A stretch of 64,000 nt of DNA. It comes from Apostichopus japonicus (taxonomy: Eukaryota > Echinodermata > Holothuroidea > Aspidochirotida > Stichopodidae). This document shows, in pieces, positions 9,713 through 46,159 of the stretch. The position numbers were made by a program, and so were the translations under genes. The first letter of the stretch is position 1. Each line of letters begins with the position of its first letter. The stretch is taken from positions 1,577,001-1,641,000 of the forward strand of contig NC_092563.1 in the NCBI RefSeq assembly GCF_037975245.1. Reading direction: 5' to 3'. A model generated the notes under the pieces. It did no database searches and was not told the DNA's origin. It worked only from the letters and a program-made list of their open reading frames with translations.

Positions 9713-9799
9713 TTAGGCACGGCCTGCCATATAATTACTACAATGGTGCTACTCTTTACGTTTGGCACAGACAAGGTTATACTGCTGGCAGATACTTAA

Positions 9800-19228: not shown

Positions 19229-19690
19229 GTGGACACTTCGGACACCTAAGCCTTAAAACACCCCAAAACTATATCTTCTGTTCTGGTATAAATCACCTGA
19301 AAATATACTTGATATGGTGGGAGAAGTGTGTTATATTACGAAACACGGCCAAACTTTCTTTCCTGCAAACTGTTTTCACGTTGTATTCCAAGAAGATTCT
19401 TCATGATTGTGGAACTTGTATTTCTTTGCTAGAGTATTGCGAAGTTCGGACACACGGCCCACAGTGTGGCGCTGGTGATAAAATTGGTGGCGCAGTTGCT
19501 CATTCAGTAATTATAACAGACTTCATAGATCTCTGTCATTTTATTGACAAATATGGAAGTATTTACTTGCACACAGGTCATTTTGGAGAGAAAGTATCTG
19601 TAGCTTCGTAGTATATATGAAATTGGCTGTTGCTATAGGTTGTCCTGGTGAAATCGTGTATTTCTTAGGGATGTCTGAACTTCGCAGTGT
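19229..19690 (+). mobile_element. GAAGTTCG MITE, copy 1
   Basis: About 460 bp, alignable by eye over most of its length with the reverse complement of 54041-54519 (shared phrases TTAAAACACCCCAAAACTA, ATATGGTGGGAGAA, ATTGACAAATATG). Ends resemble CTTCGAAGTTCGCCC..TAAG. The 100-codon frame within it belongs to the repeat and is not a gene. Confidence 0.65.
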
Positions 19691-20324
19691 TCCGAACTTT
19701 GCAATACATGACTATACTACTACTAGTAGTAGTAGTAGGCCTAAGGCTAAGGTAGCACTGATTGCAATGGACAGGTGCATGTGCTTCCACTCCAGTTCCA
19801 GTCTCAAACTGCACTTGGGCCTAGGCATATACAGTGCGGTACTTACTTCGTACTAAGTAAAGGCTTCAGATATTACTAGCAACGATACAGCAGGCAACCT
19901 TTACTTTTTGCAGTCAAGCAGAGTAACATATATATGAATGATGCGTTTGAATCCATTTCAGGTATATGCTGATCAAATTGTGTTTTTTAAAGCCTTTAAC
20001 ATGTACAGTACTCTCCCCCCAGTTTTGCACATTTTTTGGCATTAGGAAATCCTACTCCCTAAAAATAACCAAAATTACCTTAATATAATACAATTACCCT
20101 CTGGGACCCGACTTGTCAGAGCTAAGACTATGAGGCTCACATAGCATAGCAAACAGCATCCAAAGTCAATGGGTGTACACTTCAGGTCTACACTACAGTT
20201 AGCTTATCGACGAATGTGTCAATTTAGGGGTATGAAAGAACTTGACACGTCAGATATTTTTAATATGTGAGGAACTACACATGAAAATGAATACAATTGA
20301 GTGATTTGGATTTTACGTTGATAG
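19691..20324. other. Intergenic DNA with target site of the nested transposon
   Basis: Nothing recognised except the 8 bases GTTGATAG (20317-20324), which I read as the left target-site duplication of the element starting at 20325. Confidence 0.4.
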
Positions 20325-21054
20325 TAGTGTTCAACCGACAATTGGTTAGATAATCGGCATCGTGCCGATTATCAGACAATTGGTAAATAATTGGCATCGG
20401 CAAATTACCGATTATTATTTGGAACCGATTATTACGTTCAACCTAAATGATTGTATTTTTCTGCGCTTTTGATTCACCACAACCACAACCGGAGAAAAAC
20501 GTAGATCATTCGCTTCAACGCTATTCAAGCCGGGGAAGGTGCGCTCATCTACCTTGTAACGGTATCACAAGTCCCTCACGCGAGTTTGTACTAATGCTGT
20601 TCGATACACTTTCCAGTTTTGGCAGTTGACATCATACAGTTTACCTGGGATAAGCTTAGGAGGACGACATAATTATTTTTTTTCACCTCGCCTCTTGCAA
20701 AATCAACAAAATCTCATGTTATCATGTTCAACGATTGATAAGAAAGATTAATTGTCTCGACTAAATATAAAAACCAAATCAATATACTTTTGAACCACTT
20801 TGGCCGTTTCACCATAGGTGAAAACTGGAAAGTGAAAACAATAACATCATGTTCATTGTGAGTTCTACGAACATTAAGCTAGTCTGGCCAGAGAATGGTT
20901 GAGCTTCATATGTTTGGCGACAGTACTCAGTAGCTCTACAGTATTACAGTATTTTGTGATTAGGCAAACTTTCTTATGCATATTTTTGTGAAAAACCCGA
21001 AGCAACTTTTTTTTTCTCCTGACCGCATATACTAAATAAGCAAGTCTGTAATTT

Positions 21055-22443
21055 GACCTAGTTTCGAAAGAGGTGTAACAGAAGTGTTGAACATCACCAT
21101 CGATCCCAGAAAATACACACACAGCTTGCTACCGTCGGTAATTAGACACTAGTGTACAGTTAGTACATACAGCTACGGTCAATACCCACAGCACAGTGTA
21201 TAATCGATACAGCGATGGACATCTCAGGTCCAGCTAAAGATAACAAGGTATCACATTTCATTACTGTCTGCATTTTGTAGCGACACAAACAAAACGTCAC
21301 TTGTAAGCAACAGAAAGTTAACTTTTTCAGATGGCCGCACGGTTTGGGGTAGCGTTGTGCAGGATCCCGGTAGTCAAGTATTGACTAGTCCCGAACACAG
21401 TGCAATGTGTAACTACTACCGGTATTGGGAAAACAACCGGTTATTACATTCGTTTCGGTATCATTCCCGGGAATCCCGGACATATTAAAAATATCTACAT
21501 GTTACTATTTGAAATAAAGAAAAAAAGGGTTCTTAGTTTGAATAATATCTGATCAATTTACGTAATGGCCTAGACCTATATATTAACGAATCAACTTTTC
21601 ACGTAGTAATTTGGACCTAGGCTACACCAAATATCGAACGTTACTTTGGCTCAGCATTTTACGGGACCTCAAAGTTATTTTGAAATTTCGTTATTTATTC
21701 TTCCTTCAAACGATGATTGTGAAGGTTCCCATGTACAAAATCTTACCCTTATGCATTTCACCTCATTTTGTTATAATAATTCTAACGATTTAATAAATTT
21801 TGAGCCAAAACCGCAGGGAGTATATCCAGTATCCAGCCGATTAACGATATAAATAAATTCTGTACTATTCTTATGTATGTAGTTTCTAGTCCTGTATTTA
21901 CGTAGTCCCTATGTTACATCTTATTGTCTTAAGTTCCAAACACGTGGTGACATGTTGATAGTTAAAAACTTTTCATTGTGAACTTTTGAACTTGAAGGGG
22001 TTGCCCTATTCCAATATCATGGAATAGTGGGTAACTCCCAATTTCTGTTTGTGTATGGATTACAAGTTTAATCCATGTGAGAACATGTAAATCAAATATC
22101 GTACGTCGAGTATGAATGAAGGATGGTGTAGGTTGCTTTTTTCCAAGGTTTGTGCTTTTCTTTTTGGAAGTGTATGTTAAAAAACAAAGGCCCTAATATT
22201 GCGTGTTAGTTATATTTTTTCTTTTTTTGATAACCGTGCGTGTAAGAGTATGTACAAAGCCTATAGGCTATGCTTATTGAATGTATGACATCTCGTAACT
22301 ACTGTAAGTGCTTTGAACCATAGCATGAAAGTTGAGGAAAATCCCGGTGGTAGTTACGATACCGGGATTCATGTTGCAACACTACCGGTTGTATGAAATC
22401 CGACTACCGCACAACGCTAGTTTGGGGCGAGTCTTCAATGCCT
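21055..22443 (-). mobile_element. TTAA MITE, copy B, reverse and split by an insertion
   Basis: Reverse complement of the 9800-10143 family: 21055-21349 and 22420-22443 are one copy separated by the 1070-bp insertion at 21350-22419. The right end is CGAGTCTTCAATGCCT followed by TTAA (22444-22447). The left terminal 50 bp are diverged or lost, so the left border is approximate. Confidence 0.7.
21350..22419. mobile_element. Inner hAT-like non-autonomous element
   Basis: Begins TAGCGTTGTGCAGG and ends CCGCACAACGCTA, inverted ends of at least 11 perfect bases followed by a GGTAGTC match offset by 8 bases. The flanks are identical 8-mers, GTTTGGGG (21342-21349 and 22420-22427). TAGNG ends and an 8-bp duplication are typical of hAT elements. 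The interior frames (60-68 codons) are not recognisable as transposase. Confidence 0.8.
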
Positions 22444-22631: not shown

Positions 22632-23221
22632 ATAAGGCTTTGGCGATTAGGCTATTGGTGATGAGGCTACTGGTGATTAGGCTACTGGTGATTAGGCTAC
22701 TGGTGATTAGGCTACTGGTGATTAGGCTACTGGTGATTAGGCTATTGGTGATGAGGCCCTACTGGTGATTAGGCTATTGGTGATGAGGCTACTGGTGATT
22801 AGGCTATTGGTGATGAGGCTACTGGTGATTAGGCTATTGGTGATGAGGCTATTGGTGATTAGGCTATTGGTGATGAGGCTATTGGTGATTAGGCTATTGG
22901 TGATGAGGCTATTGGTGATTAGGCTATTGGTGATGAGGCTATTGGTGATGAGGCTACTGGTGATTAGGCTATTGGTGATGAGGCTACTGGTGATGAGGCT
23001 ATTGGTGATTAGGCTATTGGTGATGAGGCTACTGGTGATTAGGCTATTGGTGATGAGGCTACTGGTGATGAGGCTATTGGTGATGAGGCTACTGGTGATT
23101 AGGCTATTGGTGATGAGGCTACTGGTGATTAGGCTACTGGTGATGAGGCTACTGGTGATGAGGCTATTGGTGATGAGGCTACTGGTGATTAGGCTACTGG
23201 TGATGAGGCTATTGGTGATTA
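22632..23221. repeat. 15-bp minisatellite, about 39 units
   Basis: Unit GGTGATKAGGCTAYT, with only two common variable positions (G/T and T/C). Because the unit is 15 bp and nearly invariant, long open frames appear on both strands (LLVMR-type plus strand, SLITN/SLITS-type minus strand); these are period artefacts. The array ends 95 bp before the start codon of the TSP1-repeat gene. Confidence 0.9.
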
Positions 23222-23316
23222 GCTGGCTGTGGAACAGGTGCTTTATTACTTGCATGCAATTTTTTCCTCAACATTCCTTTCAGAGAGTTTAACATTCATT
23301 GGAGATCAAATTCACA

Positions 23317-23437
23317 ATGATAAGGAGAAAGAGACAATATATGGGATGGAAATACTTCATACAGCCAGGTTTTGTAGTACCATGTGCAGTAATAGTGATT
23401 GCTTTTCTGTGTAACTCTGACCTTGGATATGGAAATA
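23317..23437 (+). CDS. TSP1 gene exon 1: signal peptide
   Basis: ATG AT 23317, in a different frame from the longer shadow frame there. Encodes a basic N-terminus (MIRRKRQYMGWKYF) and hydrophobic core, then donor AATA|GTAAGT in phase 1. Met9 is an alternative start. Confidence 0.7.
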
Positions 23438-26400
23438 GTAAGTTGATTTTTTATCCTTATAGATAGGACTCTTGACTGTATTGTTAGGTAGGCCCAAGTC
23501 TGAAATTTCCATTTGATATCTCCATTACCTATTGTCTAATTTCCACTTTCATTGAATGACAAAACAAAATATATATCTCTATGCAACAACAGTTTCAACA
23601 GTGTTACTATAAAACCATTGCATTCATGGGCTTTGAATTTGTTATCTTTTCATTCATCAACTAACCTAGAATAAGGCAGATGTAGACCTAAGTTCATTTA
23701 ACATCATACTTATAGCCAGCAGATAATGAAAAACAATCGCTGGCATTTTTCTGATAGTGCAAGATTAATGTTGGTTTTGAATTAATACAAGGGGAAAATG
23801 CAAACTGTGGGAATTGGGGTTAAGCCAGGAGATATTTATGCACCAGTTAACTTACTTTTGCAACTTGCTAAACTTTTGGAATTCTAGGCCTGCATTTTGT
23901 TATGGTTCATAGTCTGTTAGGACAGCTTAGGAGAATTCTTTGGCTAATGCATTTGTTTGAGGTAATGTGTGGTTATTATCTTAACAAAATCATACAGGTG
24001 ATATGTGTAAGAAAAGATTTACCAATACTTTATTGGCCGAGTACGTCATGTTAGATGAGTCCAATGAAGACCTAACTGAGCGAACGGTACACTTTGGATG
24101 TGGCTTTGGTACTCACTTTGATGATGAGGATCCCACTCAACCTGGATTTAACTTTCCACACAAAGCGATTCATTGCAGTCTAGGCGTTTGGAATGACTCC
24201 ACTCCTTCTTGTATCATACGTAAGTTATGCAAACTATTGTTAATTACCTTTTCTATTAATTAATATATCTAGCTTTATACAGAATGTGATGCATAAGAAT
24301 GAACTCTCTGTGTTGATAAATATCCTCTCCAAATATGAAAAGGGAGGCGCAAATCCAGAATTAATAATTAATCCTCGGGTGGGTGCTAATACTAAATTTA
24401 AATCAGGTGGACCAGTTGCTCTTGTGATAGGGTGGTGCCCTTGGTAGGCTTCTTTGATGTCTTCTAGGCTTGTAGAGTGTGCTAATAATTATGGAATAAA
24501 TCTCATGTATTATGTCACAGATGAGTGTTATTGTTTGAGCGGCACAACAGCTCATCTTCGGCAAAAACAAGGACACCAATGTCAAAAAGGCATCAGTTTG
24601 TGGCGCCCTCCAGAGAATCAGTTCAAAACAGAAAGGAAGGGAATAAAAATGATTGAATATTGATTTGTTTTTTTTTTCCCTTTCTGCATAGCCTATAACA
24701 TGTATCTTTATACATTAGAGACCATGAATTACAGGAATGTAGTTGTGTGGCAAGGAGACCAACTGCAAATAGATTTCTTTACGGTAAGCATGTAAATTCT
24801 CTGTCAAGGTCAGCTTTTCTTGTCTTGTGATCGATTGACCGCATATCGGATTGATAAAATTAGGATGCATGCATGAAGTTTAACATACAAATTGAGGCCA
24901 CTATGGCACCATCCATAAGGCTCAATCAACAACTCCTTCAACTTGGTGGAGGTCATTAAAAAATAGAGGCTTTACCTAACCCCACAAGGAACAAGTGAAA
25001 ATTTGTTTTACAAAAAAAAAGAGGATTTATATGCTGGTCACCGGCTGCAGGCTTCCTTTGTTATACACCAACTACCTGGGCAACTTAATCAACTAGGGAA
25101 ATAATATGGTAGGGTAGGGTACAGTGTTTGTTAACTGTAACTGATGAAGTAGCTTGCTTTCACATCTATTTCTTCCTGTATTCAATTTGTTTCAATATCA
25201 AGTAGTGTCACATACATGATATTGATGAATCGGAAAAAAATTATAAGTTAAATATTAAATGAGTCACCTATATAATGGATCCCCTTTAGGATCATAGGTA
25301 CAATAAATGCATACTTTGCTCAAACAATGGCAGAAGAATTTATTTTCCACTATACTGTTAATGATGTATTAATTATATCCTACAACTTTTAGATCCAGTT
25401 TTTAATAGTGTCTTTAAGAGAATGGTAAAAAAAAGTCATCTTGCCCTGTATCATATGTAGCCTCTATTTTAGTTACAATCTTCTTTGTACAAAAGTTTTC
25501 TTCTTTTTTGTAGAAAGGGAAGTCCTTGATACTAAGAGGGCCCTATGTTTACAAGGAAAGTGGTGAAAAACTTGAGAATTCTACACTCACCAAATATATT
25601 GTGAAACCACGAGGTGTCTATTCCTTTAGAGCTGAGTGAGTAAATCTTGATTTGGTTTTATCATTTTTGGAACATTGGTATGAATGATATATTTAAATTG
25701 TTATTAGTTTACTGCAAAAAGAAAAATGTGTTTTGCCTCTAGGATACAAAGTTCTGTATAACTATATGAATACTTCATTTAATGCATGATTTGACTGGTA
25801 AATACCACATTCTAAAGGATCTCAATTAAGGTTTAAAAACATTTTGACTAACCTTGTAAGGGATATTTATGTTATCAGAGACCTGGCTGATGGCTGTGAC
25901 TAAGTTTATCCCCGGGAGGTATTGTGTCATTAAGATTTACAGCCAAAATGCAACATTTTGAGCCAAAGTCTTTACAATATATAGCACTTTGACTAATATA
26001 AGTACAGATAGGATCACCTGGACACTGAGCAATTCTATAGCATTCTCAATCTACCCATACGCCTGTCTCGATAATGCTGGCACATTGCCACTACATAGCA
26101 AACTCACTATACTAGATCTGACTAGTTTCCTGGATTAAAAGTTTTTAATACACAAAAGCTTGTTCACTTGTGCAAAAGTCGAGCCAGCTTGCTATCACCA
26201 ATAGTAAAATCACTGTCTTATGTACTCTAATGTGACAACTGAAAGGGCCAGTAGTTATTCACACAGAGACATTTAGTCTTTTCTTATGATCCTCAATGGC
26301 TGGGATAATTAAGAAGATCAAAGCCTCTAGGAATATACTTTTGATAACTTCTAGCTCCCTTTTAGCTCATGCTAAAATGTGTATGATCTTAAAGCTTTTC

Positions 26401-29400
26401 ATTAATAGCTTTGGAAAATCTCTTTTGCTTGGCATTTATAGCTTCTGTGAAAACCTTAATAGCAATGTAATTTGCTGTGGAGGTGTAATGATGGAAGGAA
26501 TTTTAGAGGCAGTACGTTGCACAGCAAGATCCATCACTCTTAATGTACTTTAATGCTTAAAGTTGGTCCCTTTATAACTAAATGTCATCTTTGTTGCTGC
26601 TGTCAATGAAAAAATAATTATTTATTTTTTAAGATGGAGAGGCTATCCTACAGTTGAGGACACTGGCTACTATTACTACCTCGACACTGAGAAATATTGG
26701 GATGATAGTGAAAAGAAGTGGATGCCCAGAAAAAGATATGAGTACTTTTACGTTCAAGTCTATGGTAACTAAATAATTAATTAATTAAATAATTGTTCAG
26801 TAAATTAATTTAAGACATATTGAGAGAAGATATGTTGATATCATCTACAAAAAAAAAGTGAGTTCTAGCAATATTACTACAATTACTGTATTCTGGTTTT
26901 CAAGATGTTCACCGTGAAAATATATCTTAACCGCAGGAATGCTCCTTGCAGGCTATATTGAGGATTAGGGGCCTCCTCGTTGCAGAAATGTTAGAAATTC
27001 TAATTAACTCAACCGAAACATTTTCTTTTAAATTCACTATCTGCAACAGAGTATACCCTTGCATGACATTCGCCACACCATTTGTTCGTGGAAAACTTGT
27101 AATATAATGAAAATATGTCATTTGAGGCTGTAAATCTATTATGCTTTCCCATGGAGCTTTGTGTTGTATCTGATGAACTGACGTACTAGTATGTGTATTA
27201 AACTAAGTAGTTCAGTCAAGTTTAATTGATGAACCTGGAGTCGTTTAAAGGGTCATTCTCCAAATTTTAAAAGTGTTATAGTAATACTACCTAAACTGAT
27301 AGCAGTGTTTTGTTATAGTCTACAACAAATCAAATTTAATTCTGTTCCTTTTAAGTCATACTTTAGTTAAGTTTAGTATCTATAAGTAAGTTCGATATTA
27401 ATTGTGTATGGTATCATCATTTGATCATGAAACCTTCTTCAGTATGTCAGGTGGGCCATGATTTCATACTGCCAGTATTAATTTATCCTTTTCAGGACCA
27501 ATCGACGGTCAGTGGAGTGAGTGGACTGCATGGAGCAGCTGTGACAGCACGTGTGGTGAGAGCAGCCGTTTCCGATCACATTCCTGTGACAATCCAGCAC
27601 CTGAAAATGGAGGGGATTATTGCCCAGGCCCTTGGAATGAAACAGAAATATGCAACGTTGACCCTTGTCCTGTGGATGGCAACTGGGCCCCATGGTCAGC
27701 ATGGTGGACTTGCACAAAATCTTGTGGAGGAGGCAGTCAAACTCACACCCGTACCTGCACCAACCCTGCACCCGTCTGGGGAGGGCTCGATTGTGGTGGA
27801 GAGAGTGAAGAAACCACAGGGTGCAATACCAACCCATGTCCTAGTAAGTGCCTAGTGTTCATACTTACGTTGTAGAGTTTTTGTGTAGAGTTTAGGTAGA
27901 GTTTCGTGTATAGAGCCTTTTGATCACTTACATGTAAGTATGCCTAGAGCATTCTGCATGAGGAGGGGCATTGATCAGATTAGTAACTCTTGTCTGGGAA
28001 GGGACACTACTTGCATCAGCCTTTTAGACTGATCATGCCCGTTTCTTGAGTATGGGACAGTGCTTAGATTAGTAGCAGCCCTTCCTAGTGTATTTTGCAG
28101 AGGCTGCAGAACAGGGTTCAATCTGGGGTGCGGGCACAAACTTCAAAGAGCAGGGACACATGTGACTTTAATTGGAAGGTGCCAAACTACAAAATCACCT
28201 CAAAATTGCAGAAAAAATGGATCCTCTAGGCATTCGGTTTGTCAACAAAACGTCACTTTAAAGTTTTTTTTTTTTTTTAATTTACCTAACAAAAGGGCAT
28301 ATTTGACATAACAAAAGGACACATTTTCAGTAGAAAGGGTACTTTTCATGAACAAATGGAAATACTTGTAATTTATGCTTGGGGCACTTTTGATGATTTC
28401 ACAAAACTGGGGTAAGGGGGGGGGGAGAGTGGGAACGTGTACCCTGTGTTCCTTTGGCTCCATCAGCCCTGACCAACAAGTTCTCAACCCTTCATATCTT
28501 TTTCCACATCTGAATACCTATTTCTCCTCTAGGCATTCGGTTTGTCAACAAAACGTCACTTTAAAGTTTTTTTTTTTTTTTAATTTACCTAACAAAAGGG
28601 CATATTTGACATAACAAAAGGACACATTTTCAGTAGAAAGGGTACTTTTCATGAACAAATGGAAATACTTGTAATTTATGCTTGGGGCACTTTTGATGAT
28701 TTCACAAAACTGGGGTAAGGGGGGGGGAGAGTGGGAACGTGTACCCTGTGTTCCTTTGGCTCCATCAGCCCTGACCAACAAGTTCTCAACCCTTCATATC
28801 TTTTTCCACATCTGAATACCTATTTCTGTACTACATTCTCAGTATGAGACACCTTACCAATAACTATCTCTAATCTCTCTCTCTTTCTCTCCAGTTGATG
28901 GGGGCTGGGGTTCATGGGATGACTGGAGTGCCTGTACCGTGCAGTGTGGAGGAGGGGGAACACGTCAGAGGATTCGTTACTGTGACGACCCATCTCCTGA
29001 GTACGGCGGCGACTACTGTGTTGGTGATAGCTACGAGACAGAGTCTTGTGGGGAACAAAGCTGCAAAGGTTTGTTATGATTTGTTGCTCGCCTTTAGCTC
29101 TTTGTTCCTCTGTCAACATCTTGCTATTGTAATATTAACAATTCGTAATTACCCTCTAACTTGATGTATTGTAATCCGCTGGGGGTATACAATATACACG
29201 TGATACTCATGTGGAAGCTAGCCTAAATCATTTTCAAATTCACACAATGATCATCTCTTCAACCTGTTTACGGTTCTTTTAGAACTGTCATGATTGCATG
29301 GCTACCATGTCTATCATTCCCAGATATATTACCATTAAAATTACACCTAATAATATAATTCACATTTAATTCCCAGTTCTTCACCATCTGAACTAGAATG

Positions 29401-32400
29401 TTTGCAAGAAACTGTTGAAATGTTTCATTTCTTCCACACCACATGGATCCACTTCTGACGGTGTCTAGGGCCCAGAGGAGGGGTCTAATTATTACCCAAC
29501 TGCATATAAAAAAAATCACCTGACTGAACGTTTTCCACCGTCTAAACATTTTTATCCCTACTGACGATAGTGGAGGGGAGGGAGGGGGAATCACCCTCTA
29601 TGCTTCCCCTATGCACACATCACTGCTTGTATCTGTAACCTTGATAATGGAAGTCATACAGGCTTTCCTTGGAGACATGTTTTTTTTTTTTTTACTGTTT
29701 GCACATTACTTAGGAGATTTTACCTACTCGTCTTTGTTTTAACTCTCATAATATAAGTCGATGGCAACTGGGCCCAGTGGAGCTCTTGGAATGAATGCTC
29801 AGTCACATGTGGCTTTGGTGTCACCAGCCGAAATCGGACTTGTTCTGATCCATCTCCGACAAGCGGAGGAAGGGACTGTCCTGGTCATCTCATTGTCAAT
29901 AATTATTACCAAGCAGAAGATTGCATGGAGCTTCTAGAATGCCCCGGTAATATATGATTAATAAAAGAATTACTGAAGCGTATTTATGATGAATTTAATT
30001 TCATGTTGGAAGCCGCCATCAATGTTTTCCGGACATGTGTGGGGTAATTGATGTCTATTTATTTTACACAGAAAAGTTGTCAAGTTGTCTTTGCTCTCAT
30101 CATATCTTATCAAATTAAAAAACTGCTCCTTTGTATTGTACAATTAATGGTTAATTCTTGTGTTACTTTTGTCCTTGTTGCCCAAATTTGTTTAAATTTT
30201 AGTGGATGGAGGGTGGACTGAATGGCCACCGTGGACTAATTGTTCGGAGCTCTGCGGGGGAGGCTTTCAGTTTCGTAACAGGTCTTGCTCTAACCCTCCT
30301 CCCAGCTCTGACGGTGCTGATTGCCATGGTAACACAACTGAAACCAGAGAATGTAATGTGCAACCTTGTGGTGGTATGTGCTATAATTATAATCATTAAC
30401 TCATTCTTTATATTCAAATTAAAACATCGATACCAACTTTTAATTAAGTAGCCTTGTATACTACTACTGAAATTTCAAGTCGGTTAATAGGGAGCTAGCC
30501 CTTTCTCATTTGCATCTGAACGAGGAGTTTTTTTAGAAAAGTGGAGACAGAGCTAGTAGCTGATCGAGATAACAACCGGCAAGTTTTCTGTTTCCTGTAA
30601 AAAAATATTTAGTTTAGAATATCTGCACACTGTAGCCATTTAGAAGGATTTTGATTTTTAGCCTAAAATTGACAGCAAGTTTAGTTTAACCATATATCTA
30701 TAAATAAAACAAAACTATTAAGTAAACTTTAAAAGCACCTTTATAAAAACAAATGTGTATCGTATAGATGGACTAGTCCACCCACACACCTCAGTCTCAA
30801 TATGTAATATAACACAGTGTAAGTCAGCATGTTTTCGTCCTCATAGTCTTGCAAATGTAAAACAGTATACCTTCCTCATACAGTTCTCATTTTCTTAATG
30901 TACAATCCTATGTAACATATTGGCTAGAATATATGGCAACTTACTCATAGCAGGAAAACTAACTGATTCTTGCTATGAAAGTACTTATTGTTTCTTCTTT
31001 CCTTCTCCTCCCCCACTCCCCCCCCTCCCCCTGGACATATCAGTCAACGGTCTTTGGGGTCAGTGGGCATCGTGGTCCACCCCTTGCTCTGTGACCTGTG
31101 GTGAAGGAGTTTTACACCGATCCAGAAAGTGTGATGACCCTCCTCCCACTTTCGGCGGGGAGGACTGCATCGGCATCAGGGAGCAAGCGAAGATTTGTAA
31201 AGACAGACCTTGTCTCAGTAAGTCAGAATTAATTCAAAGGAGAAGAAACTTCATTGTACTGTGATACTAATTACAAACAGAATATTTGAACATTGGTGCA
31301 GCACTTTTGAGTCTAGTACTTAATTCATATGCAAAATCATCATGTCAATTTCTATAAACACTGTAATTAAATCATGTAAAATACCTTGATTCAAAAAAAC
31401 AAATGCATATGATTAACAAGCAAAATGTATCAAAAGTTATTTTTAAAATCCATATTTTGCCGCTTAAACTTGTATTTAATTGGTTTAAATAGGACATCCT
31501 GAAATTGTCTTCTAAAATTTATATGCAAATTATAGATGGTGAGAGGTAGTATTTGGGAGACTTAGGGTTACAGGGAACATAAATGTTCTGTACATCTGTG
31601 CATTAAGTGAACCAAGTCAAGATTGCAGAAAGGGCTAGTTGATAGAGCAAATAAACACGATATTTTGGAAGTGGTGATAGTATGTTTTTCTGTGGTAAAG
31701 TGAAATGCATAGTATGCATTACCTTAGTGTGCCCACTGGTTCTTTCAAATAGACAATTAGTATATCCTATATTCTGGCACAAAACTTCCTTTCGATAGAC
31801 AGGAGGGAGAGAATGCATGGGAGGAAGTGGGGTGTAAATTGTGGAGAAAGGGGAGGAGGACCCTTTGTTATGGTTATCACCTAGCTATACCTACTAACTA
31901 AGAATAGGGATCATCTCGACGAGATTAACACTGGTGAGGTCTGGTCGTTCACAGATGGAGGTTGGACAGAATGGTCTCCATGGTCAATCTGTTCTGCTAG
32001 CTGTTTAGGAGGTGTCCAGGCAAGGTCCAGATCATGTACCAACCCAAGACCTGGACCTAATGGTCTAGATTGCCCAGCTAAGGATCCCATTTCTCAGTGG
32101 AGACGGTGCAACCAGCAACCCTGTCCTGGTTAGTTTATGTTACACATTTGGCTCACTAGCGAATCTTGCGCAGACGTGTTTAATATTTGATGGACTATAT
32201 TTCTATGACACAGGTACTGTGAATTTGTTGTCCTATATTAATATCTTGATATTCCCATGTGGTGGTTGTAGTATTGGCCGGAATTAACCTTAGTGGGGAT
32301 AATAGTCTAGTATAAATTAAGAATTGTATCATTCTGCAAGGACAATCTTCTTGTATCCTTCAATGCAAGCTTTAAACAATAACACATGCATGGCCAGTAG

Positions 32401-35400
32401 TTGTTTTCAACAGCTGAGCAGTTGTTGGACTTGGAATTTGACATAGCAATATGAAATCATTGTAGAATTGACTCGTTAGAAAGAACTAAAGAAATATGAA
32501 TTAACCAAACATGAGGACATAATGGATTATATATGTTTACGTGTTTGACAGTTCATGGCCGATGGGGGCAGTGGACTAATTGGACATCTTGCAGTGCGAG
32601 TTGCGACGGAGGTTTCCGCTGGCGAAATAGAAATTGCTCAAATCCGGCTCCGTTATGGGGTGGCGACGAATGCCGTGGGAAAGAACTTCAACGAAAGAGA
32701 TGTAGCAGTCACCTATGTCCTGGTAAGTAGCTGTTAGTATAAATGTCATGGACTTACCATTGAAGGAAGGTAGGTTACTTGTTATAAAAGAATGAACCAG
32801 CATTCTCTGACATTATACCATTGGTTTGTAGAGTTGTATTCGTCATGGCAGGTAAAGGGAGTGCCTCGCTCGATGTTGCATCTACCTAACACTGTACAGT
32901 GCTTTATGATTTTAATATTCATCTTTGTTGGAAATATCTGATTATGACATTAATAACTGAGCTGACGTGCATATTAATTATGTAACGATCAAACTAATTG
33001 TTGCACCTACCGCTTGCTGTACTGCCTTTACAGATTACCTGTTACCTTGTCAGGATCGCGATCATTTTACTTTCAATTCATCCCGCAGACTTCTGAGAAT
33101 ATCATGTCTCAAACGTGTAGCAGGAAAAAGTCCTAGTTCCTATTTTCTGTCATTTCTGTATGTGGTTTATCTCACTTTAGAAAGAGTGCTTACTTACCCT
33201 TTCAGATTCTAAAAATTGCATTGGTGCACTTTTCAAAACTGAGAAAAACTTGTCATTTTCCGCAGCCAATTCAATGAAATTACAGGACAACTGCCAACTT
33301 GCCCTTTTCGATCCTTAATTCAAGTCTTGGCGCACACTGTCTGGAGTCATTGAGGTGTTTTCCTATTTTAATCTTGCAGTTTTTGCGCTGACAGAAGGAA
33401 TTGAATTCATTCCGTTTGATACTCACATCAATGCCAGCTGGAGTCAGCCATTGGATTATGTTTGGCCGATTCTCTACTACAATGTACACATCAGATTACA
33501 GTAAGGAATAGTTTTGTCTCTTGAAGCATAATCACTTCTTTATTTTCTTTGAGTCAAATTTATTCATCACCATTGGATGGTCATGAAAGTTTCGGCTGGG
33601 TGGCAATATTTTTTAAAGGTCTCTGTCAAAATGGACAAAGAAGATGATGACAAAATGATTGATTGATTAATTCAGTGTGTGATTAAAGCGGAATATGTTT
33701 GATTGCTGTGTTAATGAAGCTTAAACATTTTGTGAAAGTGTTAGGTAAATATTATGCAATAACAGACTGAAGGACATCATTATTGCAATTAAGCTCAATT
33801 TGTATGCTCTTCCTGTGTAAAATAGTTTATCCAGTGATAAAATTTATATTCTCTGTAATGCTTTAATGTAATGTTGAGTAATGTTGGTAGATTAGCAACA
33901 TTCCATATATGCAGTATATTACATTTGTAATATATCAAAACAATCGGAGTAAATAAAATCTCAAGTATTAAACCTTTTTAAGATGAATAAACATTTTCCA
34001 TCATGGCCTAACCAGTCCATAAACTGTGTTTACTAATGGAATAATGTATACTTTATCTGGCAACAACAATTAACTTTCAAACAACCATATATAGAGGAAG
34101 GGAAAAAATACCTTTTTAGATGTGGTGGAAAATTAGCAGTTTCTACAGTACTACCAAAAGAACAATCGATTTGAAAATGGATTGTTGAAATTTCAGTCAT
34201 GCCTGTGGGGCTAAGCACTTCACCTACTGCGATGCCTAACTCCCCACCCCCTCCTTCCCCCCCCCCCAATCTCATTTTTCCCAGTTAGAATGCAAGTCAC
34301 ATTTATTCAGTGTTTAGCTGTGATAATTATGTGTACTTTAGAGGAAGCGCACCACCTATGAGGAAGAAACTTTGGCAAAGTTTAGAATATTTTTTAGAAT
34401 TTCAGCATACTACATATTTTAGGGGGAATATACAGATCACTTTCAAAAGAGCAAACCTAAACAATCTATCTTTCTGCTGTAGTTTTTTGATTCGTAATTG
34501 TTTCAAGTTCTTGCCCAGGCGCCTACATCGTTGGATTTCGTTTCGTCTACAGGACTAGCAAACGGAATTCAGACAAGACGATTCTCTACAACAAGGCAGA
34601 TGGTTACCATTATACTATCTACAACCTCTCAGACTTTAAAACCTACGCCACAAGAGATAATGACACATTCACAATTTCTCTGCCATTCCTGCAACCATTT
34701 AGCAGCTATGAGCTCTGTATCTCCACAAAATACAACCATACACAAGAAAGCCTTCATTCAGAGCTTGTGACGGTAACCACACTTAAGTATGGTGAGTATC
34801 GGTAACTTACATAGTAAGTACAAACATGTTGAGTATCATTATAGTAACACATGAATGTGGCAGACTAATCATACAGTGTCTTTCAAAGAAAGTCATTTTA
34901 TCTGAGCTTGCTTAAACAATAGAATTAATCAAGAAGAAAATGAGATGATTTGTCCACTCTTGAATAAATCTTGCTGGACTCTTGGAACTTTGCTGAGTCT
35001 GTGCAAGAGGAATGTTTACCTTGGCTTGACATTAATTCAACATAGTCTTTTATTTCTGCCCTGAATGTGTTTTCCATACTATTTCTCCCAGCATATCCAG
35101 CCCCTCCAACAGATGTAAGAATAGAGCTTGCTGACTTTGAATTAGAAAGAGAGCATAAGGTATCAAACTCCTCCAGATGAGATGAAGCTTAAAGTTGTTT
35201 CCTTGATGTTTGGTTCTGCATCAGTTATTTCTTGGGTCTTTTGAAGAATTAACAAGTGCTGATCTACTAAAAAAAATTAAGTTTGATAATTTCTTGACAT
35301 TTGAAACTGTTTCATCTACTTCCTGCTATTAATAATTATTTTACAGCTCATATAACCATTTTGCCTCTGTATCGTTCCTATTCTTTGAGTTTATGTTGGA

Positions 35401-38400
35401 TCTTTTTCCTTTTTTTTTTGTTGCCTTTTAATTGTTGCCACCATCTCACAGCAGGGAGTATTCAGAGCCAATCAAATTGCAGTGTCTTGTTTTCTTTACC
35501 TAAATGACCCAACTTTTGGCATGTAGAATTGACAGACAGGAAAATGGCTTGCATTAGCACCTTAACAGAAAATGTACCAATCTGATGCTCTGATGTCATG
35601 AATAAACAACAAATTTGTAAGGGCTATCTTCTTTTTTCTAAGCCTGCCATCTTAAGGTGTTATAGGCTTTGTTTATGCGTTGTGTATAGTGGATGACCTC
35701 AGAAAGTGCAATTCAGTGTTGTAAACACCGATGACTACCTGTTAATACTTTTGCAGGATCCTATTCTTCTGGCTTGAGAGATTTTGGAATAATTCCTGCA
35801 AAGTAGTTATGCTTGTTTATTTCATGGCTTGTGTGTTTATTTCTTGGTCTGTGTGTTTATTTCTTGCTTCTTGTTATCCAAGCTGGATAATGTTTTACAG
35901 TCATATCACACTTTTCAATTGTTTTTTTAATATAAATTATAAATTCATTGTCTAAGCCTTGTAACAAACACAGCTTGATTTCAAACAGAGAATGAATGAA
36001 AAAAGAACAAACTCTGTATTAATATATGTATGACAAAATAATTGCCAACATGCCCCTCAAAATAATTACGAAATAAAGTGAACTTTCTTAGTGAGTTTTG
36101 TCAATCATGCAAGTTTATGTCCCTAGTGTCCTTTCTGAAAACTGTTTACACAGAAACTAACCTAGCAATTTATCATCAAGCAAACCTAGTGTAGGAATTA
36201 TACAAAGGATGGTGGTCATCGTAAAATGCATCAGTAAACAAGATTGTGAATGCCACCACTGACTAATATGGCAGGGGTCTGAATTAATTTTCTACGAGGG
36301 CCAGAGAAAAACATTGGTTGGAGTTGAGGGCCAAACAGAACCAACATCTCACTACACCTAGATTGAATAATGTGTACGATAGGCTGGTATAGAGTTCTCA
36401 TGCCTAAGGCATTCAGAGACCATATACTTAGCAAGATCGTGGCCAATTTTTATTTCGCAGGCCAGAATTGTTCCATGTTTCCTATTGAAAACGCCTGTGG
36501 TATGGTAATGTTTGTATAAATTAATATAATAGAATATAACAGGTAACAATGATACATAGGTTGACTGGAATATTACTTACCCTCCATCAACGATATCGTG
36601 GGTTGAGGGTTTTTAAATCCTAAAGCAGTTCTAGATCACAAGTAGGCCTTAAACCACCTATTTAGTGTCATCAGCTGAAACAATTATTCATTAAATGTTT
36701 TATTTAATGCTAAATAATTAGGTTCTTCAGATGTCAGGAATGTTAAATCTCTCAAGTTAAACAAACAGTGCACAGAGGGTAAACTGCTATTACTTGCAAA
36801 TTTGTGTTCATCACCTTGTGTTATTTTAATTGCTTGGTTACATGTGACAAATATGTTATTTGATTGATCCATCAGGTATTGATCAGGTGGACACCTAATC
36901 CGTCAGAGGACTACGCCGAGCCTACCGGGTATCAGGTGATGATCAGGGATATCAGGACACCGTGGAATCAAGGATGGAGAACACTGGCCAATGTAACAGA
37001 AGAAATAACTGGGTGTGTAATTACAATGCTGTGAAATTATCTTTCTTTTTCTTTCATTTTTTTATTGTGAATATTATGAAAATTACGGTAGTAAAGAAAT
37101 ATAGCAACACAAGGCTCTTCCAGTTGAAACAAGCTTCTTTAGAAGAACTAAATTCTTATGTGTTGTACCTAATTTAAGATTATTAAATTTTAAGGTGAAT
37201 AAACATATTGTGTTTCATTTATTTTTAATTATAGTAGCCTAATAACACAATAAGTAGGACTAAAACCTTTAATGTAACTGTATTGATATATTCCATTCAT
37301 AATTGTAGCTATTTAAACATCTCTAGAATGTAATGTCAATTTGTTGATTAATCTGATTTATATTGTTTGTATCTGATTGTAATCTGATTTATATTGTTGA
37401 TTAATCTGATAAGTATCATGGACCATTGAAATAGAAAAGTGGCTAGGAAATAACATTTCGAAGGAGCCACGAAATTACCAGATTTGATCTTACCTGCGAG
37501 CAAAACATTTCTCTTTCAGGTATCTTGTGAGAAGCTCAGAGGGGATTAGATTAGCTGAGGAAGTTTATGCCATCCAGGTGAAAGCTATCAGTGATGGACG
37601 AGAAAGTAAATCTACCACTTGTCCAGATCTAGTTGACTACCAGCAAGGTAAATACCAATGAGAAAATACTTGGTCAATGTCACCATGACAGATCTGGCAC
37701 TGTCTTTGGCATCTTGCCAGCTGACCACTCCCTCTCAATACCATAGATTTTGGAATTTGGCGTTAGCTGGTCAGTGGGGAGGAATATAAGCTGTCAAAGC
37801 ATTGCTACTGCTTAAACTTGCTGGTTTCAGCAGTTATCCTTCCCTTCTTTAACAGTGTCAGTTGCCAGTACTTAGTCAGTTTACAGTTAAACTTCCTTGA
37901 AATGTGTATAATATGCAAATGAGATGAGGCAGACCTATAAAGGCATTGAAGACTCTCCCCAAACCGCGTGCAGCCATCTAAAATAGTTAACTTTCTGTTG
38001 CTTGCAAGTGACGTTTTGTTCGTATCGTTACAAAATGCAGACAGTAATGAAACGTGATACCTTGTTATCTTTAGCTGGACCTGAGATGTCCATCGCTGTA
38101 TCGTTTGTACACTGTGCTGTGGGTATTGACCGCAGCTGTATGTACTGACTGTACAACGTCTCATAACCGACGGTAGCAAGCTGTGTGTGAATTTTCTGGG
38201 ATCAATGGTGGTGTCTAACACTTCTGTTACACCTCATTCGAAACTCGGTCAGATTACCGGCATTAGACATTTTTTTTTGGGCGAGTCTTTACACCCATTT
38301 AAAATCCTGCTCAGAGATCCCAAAAGTTTTTTACAATTAAATTAGACAATTAAATATTTCTGAGGCATTTGGTACACATTGTGTGCCAAGTTACTAAGTA

Positions 38401-38980
38401 TTATGTAACCCGGATGTTAACTTCATTATCGAAACTTTCTGCATGGCCAGACATAATGTTACCACAGTCACTTGACTTGCTAGGTTGGTACATGATAAAT
38501 GAATGTACTTTACATCACTAGCACTTCACCCTTATGTTATGCTAAGTTTATTTCAAAAAACATATTGGTATGATTTGATACATCACACTTTTTAACAATT
38601 CACCTGACTTGTCCCCCAAATTTGCTTTTACTCATATCAAATTCTTTAATTTCCCCCCCCCCCCCCATTTTCTGCATTGAAAGTCATTTAGAATATTTTA
38701 TGCCATTCTGGGGCTATACTTGATGGGCAGTGGCTTGTAGTAAAATGAATTAAGACAACAATGTACCATGTATTGATCATGACAGATAGAGGTCACGCAA
38801 AAATTAATTAAAATGTCATGTACATCATTATACCTGTTATGTAAGTTAAAGACCAGCTGATCTGATTATTTCCTTACAGTTGGCGGAAGAACCTTGATGG
38901 TTTTTAGCGGAACTAACGGTTTCAACCTAATGCCAGGCTTGAATTTTCTTCTAGTTTTCATCCACTGGCTATCGATATGA
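23317..38980 (+). CDS. GPI-anchored sushi-Ig-TSP1(x8)-FN3(x2) surface protein (18 exons)
   Basis: Eighteen exons joined at GT-AG sites encode about 971 aa. Domains in order: signal peptide (1-37, hydrophobic FVVPCAVIVIAFLC); sushi/CCP (about 41-114, ending GVWNDSTPSC); Ig-like (about 115-229, with DTGYYYYL); eight TSP1 repeats (230-696), each with a WxxWxxW-type start and six cysteines; two FN3-like domains (697-938); and a C-terminal hydrophobic tail after SGTNG that looks like a GPI-anchor signal. Repeats 1, 2, 4 and 6 have the CxxS/TCG O-fucosylation motif. Nearly all module boundaries are phase 1, as in shuffled domain exons. The exon 13 to exon 14 join breaks frame, so a small exon may be missing. 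A role in cell-surface adhesion, guidance or pattern recognition is plausible from the domains but not shown. I do not recognise a named orthologue. Confidence 0.8.
23998..24219 (+). CDS. TSP1 gene exon 2: sushi/CCP domain
   Basis: Phase 1-1 exon, 222 bp. Four cysteines in sushi order (MCKKR, FGCGF, IHCSLGVW, PSCII) with the Trp between Cys3 and Cys4. Donor C|GTAAGT. Confidence 0.8.
24692..24783 (+). CDS. TSP1 gene exon 3: start of Ig-like domain
   Basis: Acceptor TTTCTGCATAG, donor ACG|GTAAGC, leaves in phase 0. Encodes YNMYLYTLETMNYRNVVV and WQGDQLQIDFFT, beta-strand-like. Confidence 0.75.
25514..25635 (+). CDS. TSP1 gene exon 4: middle of Ig-like domain
   Basis: Acceptor CTTTTTTGTAG, donor GCTGA|GTGAGT, phase 0 to 2. 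Encodes KGKSLILRGPYVYKESG through GVYSFRA. Confidence 0.75.
26634..26764 (+). CDS. TSP1 gene exon 5: end of Ig-like domain
   Basis: Acceptor TTTTTTAAG, donor TATG|GTAACT, ends in phase 1. Contains VEDTGYYYYLD, an Ig F-strand motif in which the usual cysteine is replaced by Tyr, then FYVQVYG. Confidence 0.75.
27496..27843 (+). CDS. TSP1 gene exon 6: TSP1 repeats 1 and 2
   Basis: 348 bp, phase 1-1, the only exon with two repeats. Repeat 1: WSEWTAWSSC, CDSTCGE. Repeat 2: WAPWSAWWTC, CTKSCGG. Donor CCTA|GTAAGT. The long minus-strand frame here is its shadow. Confidence 0.9.
28223..28827 (+). repeat. Recent 303-bp tandem duplication in the intron between exons 6 and 7
   Basis: Copies 28223-28525 and 28526-28827 look identical except for one base in a G run. 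Both start CCTCTAGGCATTCGG and end GAATACCTATTTCT. The duplicated frames over it are non-coding. Confidence 0.9.
28895..29068 (+). CDS. TSP1 gene exon 7: TSP1 repeat 3
   Basis: 174 bp, phase 1-1, after a strong CT-rich acceptor. WGSWDDWSAC; CTVQCGG lacks the Ser/Thr for O-fucosylation. Six cysteines. Confidence 0.9.
29758..29946 (+). CDS. TSP1 gene exon 8: TSP1 repeat 4
   Basis: 189 bp, phase 1-1. WAQWSSWNEC and CSVTCGF. Slightly long between Cys4 and Cys5 (GHLIVNNYYQAED). Donor CCCCG|GTAATA. Confidence 0.9.
30203..30373 (+). CDS. TSP1 gene exon 9: TSP1 repeat 5
   Basis: 171 bp, phase 1-1. WTEWPPWTNC, CSELCGG (no Ser/Thr acceptor), N-glycosylation sequons NCS and NTT. Donor GGTG|GTATGT. Confidence 0.9.
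31044..31217 (+). CDS. TSP1 gene exon 10: TSP1 repeat 6
   Basis: 174 bp, phase 1-1. WGQWASWSTPC and CSVTCGE, six cysteines. Donor CTCA|GTAAGT. Confidence 0.9.
31955..32128 (+). CDS. TSP1 gene exon 11: TSP1 repeat 7
   Basis: 174 bp, phase 1-1. WTEWSPWSIC; CSASCLG has Leu where the usual motif has Gly. Donor CCTG|GTTAGT. Confidence 0.9.
32552..32722 (+). CDS. TSP1 gene exon 12: TSP1 repeat 8
   Basis: 171 bp, phase 1-1. WGQWTNWTSC; CSASCDG lacks the usual Cys-Gly. Donor CCTG|GTAAGT. Confidence 0.9.
33380..33500 (+). CDS. TSP1 gene exon 13: first half of FN3-like domain 1
   Basis: Acceptor TTTTAATCTTGCAG, donor TTACA|GTAAGG. Encodes FN3 A-C strands (INASWSQP, ILYYNVHIRL). It leaves in phase 2, whereas the next recognisable exon needs phase 1. 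Confidence 0.7.
34519..34791 (+). CDS. TSP1 gene exon 14: FN3-like domain 1, remainder
   Basis: Acceptor TTCTTGCCCAG, donor TATG|GTGAGT. Open only in the frame that starts with the second base of a codon: AYIVGFRFVYRT, then SYELCISTKYN and ELVTVTTL (F-G strands). A second C-strand-like stretch at its start suggests sequence is missing between exons 13 and 14. Confidence 0.7.
35092..35159 (+). CDS. TSP1 gene exon 15: start of FN3-like domain 2
   Basis: 68 bp, phase 1 to 0. AYPAPPTDVRIELADFEL matches the linker and A strand of FN3 domains. Confidence 0.75.
36876..37012 (+). CDS. TSP1 gene exon 16: FN3-like domain 2, middle
   Basis: 137 bp, phase 0 to 2. VLIRWTPNPSED, then PTGYQVMIRD, classic FN3 B and C strands. 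Confidence 0.8.
37520..37647 (+). CDS. TSP1 gene exon 17: FN3-like domain 2, end
   Basis: 128 bp, phase 2 to 1. EEVYAIQVKAISDGRES is the F-G hairpin. Donor CAAG|GTAAAT. Confidence 0.8.
37941..38298 (+). mobile_element. TTAA MITE, copy C, in the last intron of the TSP1 gene
   Basis: 358 bp, same family as 9800-10143: starts AGGCATTGAAGACT, ends GCGAGTCTTTACACCCA. The right TTAA is intact (38299-38302); the left one has decayed to ATAA. Confidence 0.75.
38880..38980 (+). CDS. TSP1 gene exon 18: GPI-anchor signal and stop
   Basis: Acceptor TTTCCTTACAG. Encodes GGRTLMVFSGTNGF followed by the hydrophobic tail LNFLLVFIHWLSI and TGA at 38978-38980. A small-residue patch (SGTNG), short spacer and hydrophobic end with nothing after it is the pattern of a GPI-attachment signal rather than a transmembrane anchor. 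Confidence 0.7.
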
Positions 38981-39494: not shown

Positions 39495-40474
39495 TCATCC
39501 TTTCACTGATTGGATATGTTTGTCCCTTTGACTGATTGGATATCTTTGTTCCTTTCACTGATTGGATATGTTTGTCCCTTTCACTGATTGGATATGTTTG
39601 TCCCTTTCACTGATTGGATATGTTTGTCCCTTTCACTGATTGGATATCTTTGTTCCTTTCACTGATTGGATATGTTTGTCCCTTTCACTGATTGGATGTA
39701 TGTTTGTCCCTTTGACTGATTGGATATGTTTGTCCCTTTCACTGATTGGATATGTTTGTCCCTTTCACTGATTGGATATGTTTGTCCCTTTCACTGATTG
39801 GATGTATGTTTGTCCCTTTGACTGATTGGATATGTTTGTCCCTTTCACTAATTGGATGTATGTTTGTCCCTTTGACTGATTGGATATGTTTGTCCCTTTC
39901 ACTGATTGGCTATGTTTGTCCCTTTCACTGATTGGATATGTTTGTCCCTTTGACTGATTGGATATGTTTGTCCCTTTGACTAATTGGATGTGTTTGTTCC
40001 TTTCACTGATTGGATATGTTTGTCCCTTTCACTGATTGGATATGTTTGTCCCTTTGACTGATTGGATATGTTTGTCCCTTTCACTAATTGGATGTGTTTG
40101 TTCCTTTCACTGATTGGATATGTTTGTCCCTTTCACTGATTGGATGTTTGTCCCTTTCACTGATTGGATATGTTTGTCACTTTCACTGATTGGATATGTT
40201 TGTCCCTTTGACTGATTGGATATGTTTGTCCCTTTCACTAATTGGATGTGTTTGCTCCTTTCACTGATTGGATATGTTTGTCCCTTTCACTGATTGGATA
40301 TGTTTGTCCCTTTGACTGATTGGATATGTTTGTCCTTTTCACTAATTGGATGTATGTTTGTCCCTTTCACTAATTGGATATGTTTGTCCCTTTCACTGAT
40401 TGGCTATGTTTGTCCCTTTCACTGATTGGATATGTTTGTCCCTTTCACTGATTGGATATGTTTGTCCATGATAA
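39495..40474 (+). repeat. 26-bp minisatellite, about 37 units
   Basis: Unit CTGATTGGATATGTTTGTCC plus CTTTCA, with recurring variants (CTTTGA, ACTAATTGG, GGATGTATG). A short frame over it is a repeat artefact. It begins just after the TSP1-gene poly(A) signal. Confidence 0.9.
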
Positions 40475-44002: not shown

Positions 44003-46159
44003 GCACCTCAAAGCATCTGTATGATTTTGCTCTTAATTGGGTAGTAAGTTAAACTGTTACTATTGTACCCCACAAATTTAATGAAATTTTCATATGCTCA
44101 AGTGATCACCTTACATCTAATCTGATTGTTTCTTGCAGACTTGCCCCCCCCCTCTACCCCCCCTTCCAAAAAAATTGGGTTGCCAAATTTATATCGTGTC
44201 TCAAGCCAGGTAGCGGAAACAAAACAAATTGATCAGTTTAAATCTTTCTAATAGAATCCAACTGTAAATTTCCTCCCTGTACTGTCATAGTAGTTCCCAT
44301 GTTTTGATAAACATATGTACGCTGTTGTTTACTGTTAGCCAATATCCAATCAACTGCCATCAAAGCAATCGATGAGCAGTTAAATCATTAATCATCACAA
44401 AGAATGTATGGATTTTTGTTGGATGATTTTAAGCCTTTATGGAGAGAAGCATCTCAGAGGAAATCACAAAATAGATTGCCAATGAAAGTTTGGGAACCAG
44501 GATCTATAGGATTTTGGTGGACAAATTCAGGTACCTCATCTTTCTCTCAATGGTTGGACATGGTATCACTGTATTAAAACCAAATTGTAGCAACTTTTAA
44601 TAGTTAAGAGACATGTCTGAGAAGTGCTGGTCAGAATGATTACCAAAGGTGAATAGAACTGTATTCAGTATATGGAAAACAAGGAGAACATATAAATGTA
44701 AACATCAAATCTGGCAGACTATGTATGTACTAAGTTCTCAAAATCTTGTTATTTCTGAATTCTCCAGGCCAACTACCACAGTACGCAATGTGGAAATAAA
44801 TGATTAAAAACAATTAGGAGTAAACATGCTAACAAGGTACCTTGAAGTACGGAGGCACAATTTTTGCATGGATTTCAAATTTGCTGGAAGGAAAGCAGTC
44901 TCCCAGGGCCCCCAGGTTGTATGACATGCATTTAAGAATCTGATGGCATTGTGCCTTAGAATCAAAATGTTGAAGGGCTAGCTAATGGCATTCCAATAGG
45001 CTAAAGGTGATCCAGGCATTAGCCAACAGGTATTCTGGATGCAAATTCGTATTGAATACACAATCTGTAAATTAATAAAGAAGTAGCCTTGGACTACTTA
45101 CTTTGGTATGGTGGTATGTATACAGTAACTTCACATATCCCCTAAATTCGCAAACTGCTATACATATGTAGCTGCACTGATAAACACTTTAGTGGCCTTG
45201 TTCAGAAGTCAAATTGTAACCATTTTTCAATCGTGACATTAATCTACAAAGCATTAACGGAAATGTCAGCCAAACTTGCCATGTGCAGTGAAACAAGGAA
45301 ACATCAATTTTGAGAAGCTTTTTGAATTATTTCATGCGCTATGCCGAATTATACAGTTAACTTAAACTCATGAATGCACAAATATTTGGGAAATTTTCCC
45401 TTGCTTCGAGCTATTTGACTTCCGACATTTATAAGTATAATTCTCTCTATTTCCAGGGAAGTTGGTCAAAATATTCATGAAATTGCATAGCTGAAGGAAA
45501 GAACCATGTCACTGAACGAAATCAGAAAGATCGTCAATACCGCTATCATTTAAAAGAACATTATTGCCCTTACTATCGCGAATTTACCGTATACCATCAG
45601 AAAAAACTTTACACCATGTATTATTGAATACATGATGCAACTTGCATTGGTTTACCTACAATGCAACTTGCATTGGTTTAGCTACAATGTACAGACGGCT
45701 ATTGCGCAAAGTTTACTCGGGGTTACAAGACTGACATTGACAATACATTATCGCCTAGGGAATGTAGGCTACTCGATTTCTTTGTTTTTCAACATGAATA
45801 CATTATCAAAATATGTCAGAAATATCAAAATAGCTTGTTACCAAAAATCCAACCATGATTATTCAAGTGTGCTGCACGTCTCGTTAAATAACAATCAAAA
45901 TCCAAGACTTTACTGCGGATCTAAATGTAAAGAGTTCTGTCACGTTCAGAGTCAGGTATTGTGATACGGTAACCTAGAAGGTACATACGAAAGAGGAAAC
46001 ATGAAAAAGTAACCCAGATTTAATGTTTCTGTAAGTGTTCGATCCTTTAATTATATCATCTTATTATACCTCCAAGGGTGGCGGGGCTACTCCACTTGAA
46101 CGCCTAAACGTGAATCCTTTTAAAAACCCATAAAATATAATGGAATAGTGGTATTGCCG

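Follow-up and report, generated by a model that had tools for sequence, protein, structure and literature searches.

A sea cucumber gene encoding an array of eight thrombospondin type 1 repeats with a candidate GPI-signal tail

The genome of the sea cucumber Apostichopus japonicus carries, on contig NC_092563.1 of assembly GCF_037975245.1, a gene whose predicted product is built around an array of eight thrombospondin type 1 repeats (TSRs). The stretch analyzed here, termed the window, comprises 64,000 nucleotides (positions 1,577,001 to 1,641,000 of the forward strand), and all gene coordinates are given within it. We think it likely, with moderate confidence, that this is an intact animal gene for a secreted, probably glycosylphosphatidylinositol (GPI)-anchored TSR-array surface protein, which may act as a co-receptor in adhesion or recognition. 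What is new about it is a mix of familiar modules.

A single continuous gene runs along the plus strand of the window from 23317 to 38980, opening with an ATG at 23317 and closing with a TGA at 38978–38980. Its 18 exons (Table 1) join into one open frame of 975 amino acids with no internal stop, all 17 introns are bounded by GT and AG, and an in-frame stop lies upstream of the ATG at 23290. The exon boundaries are those of a model chosen to preserve both the frame and the GT-AG rule, and the splicing drawn here is a prediction in that sense. A preliminary description of this DNA had proposed one gene with the same limits, which fall exactly on a start and a stop codon. The opposite arrangement, with the TSP1 exons divided between two adjacent genes, was looked for in the DNA, not seen, and rejected: all 18 exons share one frame, and a tblastn search with the protein (E≤10) found no further TSP1 copy in the window.

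The TSR array is the best-defined part of the protein. Pfam TSP_1 matches eight stretches of it (E 4.6e-75), in agreement with the eight TSP1 modules first described, and the related profiles TSP1_spondin, TSP1_ADAMTS, and TSP1_CFP_C also exceed their cut-offs (62.2 bits against 27 for TSP1_CFP_C). Among proteins of the PDB, properdin is the best match (E 3.6e-41), followed by thrombospondin-1 and UNC5B. Every repeat has six cysteines and a WxxWxxW motif; the cysteine spacing is 3-10-11-9-4 in five of the eight and longer in repeats 3, 4, and 7. The exons that bear the array, exons 6 to 12, are all in phase 1 at both ends, and the eight repeats were all recovered when the whole genome was searched with the TSP_1 profile.

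The two halves of the array differ in charge. TSRs 1–4 combined are acidic (isoelectric point 4.1) and TSRs 5–8 combined are basic (8.2), with net charges from the first repeat to the eighth of −8, −3, −7, −5, −4, 0, +3, and +5; repeat 5 alone is thus at −4. The motif C-x2-3-[S/T]-C-x2-G, which we take to be the O-fucosylation motif of TSRs, occurs in five of the eight repeats, WxxW/C sites occur in all of them, and the whole protein has 14 N-glycosylation sequons.

The host genome that was searched comprises 671.6 Mb in 35 contigs, with the window at C3:1577001-1641000. It holds at least 128 TSP_1 matches at E≤1e-3, the eight of this gene included, among the 150 of 231 candidates that were scored. 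To place the repeats among their relatives, a FastTree tree was computed from 88 sequences, the gene's eight and 80 repeats from 26 genome stretches, each spanning at least 40 profile positions and taken from selected loci rather than from all 128 matches. Recent amplification of TSRs within the gene was rejected, as in none of eight cases was one of its own repeats sister to another. Their sisters are found in arrays on contigs C2, C9/C16, C19, and C22, with supports from 0 to 0.875. One stretch of C2 (4287000–4326600), with 16 TSP1 exons that all share a strand, exceeds the present gene in repeat number. Another array, at C11:1303000-1312900, contains copies with identical bit scores (one pair at 43.3 and another at 36.5, for example), and the sharing of scores by several copies suggests recent tandem duplication there.

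The region preceding the array behaves differently in the genome. TSP1 exons are common in it, whereas the region of exons 2 to 5 matches its own locus only, with four matches at E≤10, all at that locus; a very diverged copy could escape such a search. Exon 2, where the preliminary description saw one CCP, is putatively a divergent CCP, although the assignment is weak. It ends in the CCP-like pattern C-x2-G-x-W-x4-P-x-C and scores 9.7 bits on a profile of 12 CCPs from complement receptors 1 and 2 and factor H, in an alignment of only 18 residues at the end of the exon. None of 5000 free shuffles and two of 5000 shuffles with fixed cysteines reached this score (in the CCP, Ig, and FN3 tests alike, shuffles without a reported score were taken as lying below the real one), and the gene's own TSRs reach at most 2.6 bits on the same profile. 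A pattern written after the exon had been viewed was matched by none of 500000 shuffles. While the shuffles speak for a CCP, the exon has no match in Pfam or the PDB, even at E 10; the speed filters of Pfam lose most weak matches. Exons 3 to 5 contain no cysteine and have no Pfam Ig match and no PDB match. The sole Ig-like sign in them is the motif EDTGYYYYL of exon 5, which we take to resemble the Ig tyrosine corner without its cysteine. As a control, one Ig open reading frame from the hemicentin-like locus elsewhere in the genome matched I-set at E 5.9e-11 over positions 1–62 of 90. Exons 3 to 5 are probably a beta-rich segment, as yet unclassified.

Between the array and the C-terminus, the preliminary description placed two FN3-like modules, of which the second stands on firmer ground. 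Supported as an FN3 module at the level of sequence, exons 15 to 17 match an FN3 of contactin-5 in a phmmer search of the PDB (E 1.6e-4 over 52 residues), and their score on an FN3 profile was reached by eight of 5000 shuffles. In Pfam, the second module has matches below the cut-offs only, to Tissue_fac (E 0.062) and to Ig_RIMBP2 (E 0.0041), the single Ig-named match of the protein. For the first module, the FN3 score of exon 13 alone was equalled by 153 of 5000 shuffles and that of exon 14 alone by 26, and a match to Robo1 (E 0.0017) covers its second half and extends into the next module. By eye, exons 13 and 14 each resemble part of an FN3, exon 13 supplying strands A-B-C and exon 14 opening with a second C-like strand, so that this strand is repeated.

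Hydrophobic segments mark both ends of the protein. Only two stretches are strongly hydrophobic, residues 14–32 and the C-terminus, and there is no internal transmembrane-like segment. The most hydrophobic N-terminal 19-mer begins at residue 14, within exon 1. At the other end, the exon 18 peptide has a triple of small residues, SGT, and after a spacer it finishes in a hydrophobic segment of 14 residues (mean hydropathy 1.8) that runs up to the stop codon. GPI anchoring through this tail, as first proposed, is plausible. Exon 18 meets a home-made rule for GPI signals, with a hydropathy threshold of 1.8 set in the script, but so do 11 of 982 random terminal exons; within the window, two of 153 pseudo-terminal exons pass, exon 18 included.

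Several results weigh against the interpretation as a surface protein with a CCP, an Ig-like module, two FN3 modules, and a GPI tail. Real CCPs left out of the profile scored 21.6–72.1 bits, far above the score of exon 2. The Ig-profile score of exons 3 to 5 was equalled by 329 of 5000 shuffles, and an Ig module there, part of the preliminary description, must be called unsupported. The first FN3 module, irregular and weak, is doubtful, the score of exons 13 and 14 together being equalled by 72 of 5000 shuffles. Because the N-terminal hydrophobic segment follows a basic stretch, it may be an uncleaved signal anchor. Lastly, the C-terminal tail is only just at the hydropathy threshold, with H and N inside its hydrophobic end.

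The uncertain modules bear on whether the edges of the gene were drawn correctly. It is conceivable, if rather doubtful, that a true TSR core has been given wrong edges, with exons 13 and 14 or the N-terminal exons joined otherwise, for example, exon 12 to an acceptor at 34519. That acceptor outscores the one used at 34508 (12 against 10), and its phase fits exon 12, which makes skipping of exon 13 possible, and the state of the first FN3 and of the Ig region points the same way. Against this, exon 13 has the FN3-like strands noted above, and the chain of exons 12, 13, and 14 is open and in frame. Since exon 13 ends in phase 2, exon 14 must begin at 34508 when exon 13 is used. A missing FN3 exon within intron 13 was also rejected. 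The search (acceptor score of at least 8, donor score of at least 4, at least 12 residues) returned a sole phase 2-to-1 candidate, ending at 33618 with two alternative acceptors, which is not FN3-like by eye; no exon that would complete the FN3-like module was found there.

The borderline tail raises a further question, whether the protein is held at the membrane at all. If exon 18 encodes no working GPI signal, the product would be a soluble TSR-array protein of the properdin or rhamnospondin kind, acting as an opsonin or matrix component. The narrow pass of the GPI rule is consistent with this, as are the leading place of properdin among PDB matches and the TSP1_CFP_C score. However, the hydrophobic end lies directly before the stop with the small-residue triple at the right distance, and properdin is not known to have an FN3 module near its end or a CCP-like exon. 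We regard a soluble product as unlikely.

A transmembrane receptor would require exon 17 to join a distant exon encoding a helix that spans the membrane, followed by a cytoplasmic tail, with exon 18 an alternative or false end. Candidate downstream terminal exons were taken from 106 acceptors with at least 14 pyrimidines in 20, of which 35 gave peptides of at least 20 residues. Exon 18 ranks third of the 35 by hydrophobicity over 19 residues, and the two candidates above it (59931 and 57979) are the point in favor of a transmembrane form. Yet both lie more than 19 kb past exon 18 (about 19 and 21 kb downstream), compared with 1.2 kb between exons 17 and 18, and they encode 36 and 37 residues before a stop. 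Two candidates closer by, at 38009 and 38075, fall within a dispersed repeat, and no nearer candidate outside repeats is more hydrophobic than exon 18; a better membrane segment close by, which would have displaced the GPI tail of the preliminary description, was thus looked for and not found. Nine selected open reading frames outside the coding exons likewise have no Pfam domain above cut-off, and one scan based on open reading frames took those of at least 45 residues only. A transmembrane form is very improbable.

Axon guidance, the binding of matrix, and recognition in immunity all involve TSR proteins. With a GPI anchor, the protein studied here would have an N-terminal head, composed of the divergent CCP and the unclassified, probably beta-rich segment, carried on a stalk formed by the eight TSP1 repeats, with the FN3-type modules next to the membrane and the GPI tail following them. 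Ligands of the stalk could be glycosaminoglycans, matrix, or a protein, and the stalk could also keep the head away from the membrane. Such a protein would have no cytoplasmic part, and therefore any signal would have to go through a partner; if GPI-anchored, it is a clear candidate co-receptor. To our knowledge, a GPI anchor is an unusual way to hold a TSR array at the cell surface. A role in adhesion or recognition is proposed here as the most likely one. A bolder version, a lineage-specific GPI-anchored receptor for recognition or guidance that would present a divergent CCP and a beta domain outside the recognized families on the eight-TSR stalk, in an undescribed order, is tentative and in our judgment somewhat unlikely. 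The value of the gene is moderate, given that its modules are familiar and TSR exons abundant in the host genome.

Comparison with known systems places the protein in the TSP1 (TSR) superfamily and outside properdin, the UNC5 receptors, the contactins, hemicentin, and rhamnospondin. Properdin (CFP), with which it shares tandem TSP1 repeats, the best PDB match, and the TSP1_CFP_C match, is soluble and consists solely of an N-terminal TB-like domain and the six TSRs that follow it. The protein studied here differs in its number of TSRs (eight), in a module that matches FN3, in an exon resembling a CCP, and in its probable GPI tail, and Pfam finds no TB-like domain in it. UNC5 netrin receptors are cell-surface proteins with two Ig domains, two TSRs, a transmembrane segment, and ZU5 and death domains. 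The order of N-terminal modules followed by TSP1 is shared with them, and the TSRs match UNC5A, B, and D; the array of eight, the lack of Pfam matches to ZU5, death, or Ig domains, and the lack of an internal transmembrane-like segment set the protein apart. Contactins have six Ig domains, four FN3 domains, a GPI anchor, and no TSRs. Their likeness to the protein is in the second FN3 module, GPI anchorage being only probable here, and the TSR array and the absence of an Ig match above cut-off (the one Ig-named match falls on the second FN3 module) distinguish it. Class I cytokine receptors of the CNTFR type have an Ig domain, two FN3 domains, a GPI anchor, and a WSXWS motif in the membrane-proximal FN3. 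This identity was rejected, as the sole WSXWS of the protein is the WSPWS at residue 588, in TSR 7 and not in an FN3. The closest functional likeness may be to properdin and rhamnospondin for the array and to UNC5 and the contactins for placement at the cell surface.

Hemicentin and thrombospondins of echinoderms have been described, and the hemicentin architecture comprises vWA, Ig repeats, TSRs, G2F, and EGF, according to the sections of PMC10381214 covered here. Tandem TSRs are shared with it, and repeats 6 and 7 of the gene are sister to TSRs of a hemicentin-like locus (supports 0.846 and 0.875). Hemicentin identity was nevertheless rejected: the protein has no vWA, G2F, or EGF match, and the hemicentin-like locus lies elsewhere, on C22. 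That locus has six TSR exons, Ig, G2F, and EGF-like open reading frames (EGF by eye), and its assignment rests on these Ig, TSR, G2F, and EGF-like parts, the vWA end lying outside the region examined. Rhamnospondin of Hydractinia has eight TSRs, as does the gene studied here, and binding of microbes has been proposed for it (sections of PMC4820225 and PMC5446238). It is secreted and has a rhamnose-binding lectin domain (sections of PMC4820225); no Pfam match to a lectin domain was found in our protein. In cnidarians the repertoire of TSR proteins is large and includes TSR-only forms, novel architectures, and some proteins with immunoglobulin domains, as set out in portions of PMC5446238, whose main text never uses the words CCP, sushi, or GPI. 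Given such novel architectures of the shuffled kind, as those portions report them, the preliminary description of the gene as a candidate for an undescribed surface system was too strong. Among the publications listed in a search by title and opening of the abstract, with subscription journals mostly outside its reach, none has this domain order, nor do the parts of PMC11312191 and PMC6374515 covered here contain a protein with it.

Table 1. Exons of the gene and the candidate polyadenylation signal (window coordinates).
Feature	Position	Strand	Content
Exon 1	23317..23437	+	Start codon and signal-peptide-like segment
Exon 2	23998..24219	+	CCP/sushi-like module, divergent, with 4 Cys; no Pfam match; phase 1-1
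Exon 3	24692..24783	+	Start of region earlier named Ig-like; no Cys, putative fold
Exon 4	25514..25635	+	Region earlier named Ig-like, continued
Exon 5	26634..26764	+	Region earlier named Ig-like; EDTGYYYYL motif
Exon 6	27496..27843	+	TSP1 repeats 1 and 2
Exon 7	28895..29068	+	TSP1 repeat 3
Exon 8	29758..29946	+	TSP1 repeat 4
Exon 9	30203..30373	+	TSP1 repeat 5
Exon 10	31044..31217	+	TSP1 repeat 6
Exon 11	31955..32128	+	TSP1 repeat 7
Exon 12	32552..32722	+	TSP1 repeat 8
Exon 13	33380..33500	+	Phase 1 to 2; FN3-like strands A-B-C by eye, weak
Exon 14	34508..34791	+	Remainder of first FN3-like module
Exon 15	35092..35159	+	Second FN3 module, start
Exon 16	36876..37012	+	Second FN3 module, middle
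Exon 17	37520..37647	+	Second FN3 module, end
Exon 18	38880..38980	+	Tail resembling a GPI signal (S of SGT as candidate omega residue, then spacer and hydrophobic end); stop codon TGA
Candidate poly(A) signal AATAAA	39435..39440	+	

Rfam and tRNA searches returned nothing bearing on the gene, and a search of viral contigs gave three pattern matches and no relatives. An open reading frame of 136 residues at 45554–45961 has Pfam matches below threshold to ORC1_wHTH (E 0.0039) and PH_SPT16 (E 0.05), which are probably due to chance. The gene is flanked by two minisatellites. The first, at 22635–23222, is built of 15/30-bp units (some 19 copies at 30 bp, with 95% matches) and stops about 95 bases upstream of the start codon; the second, at 39499–40467, has 37 copies of a 26-bp unit and begins about 520 bases past the stop codon, a short way beyond the candidate poly(A) signal. 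In the intron preceding TSP1 repeat 3, a 303-bp tandem duplication (28222–28827) appears recent, given that its copies are 99.7% identical. Interspersed repeats of at least 120 bases, outside the two minisatellites, include a dispersed repeat of about 300–380 bp in four copies that are 86–92% identical (9787–10147, 21048–21349, 37928–38304, and 47920–48296), one of which sits in the last intron of the gene, and an inverted pair at 19237–19718 and 54027–54501, about 480 bases long and 88% identical.

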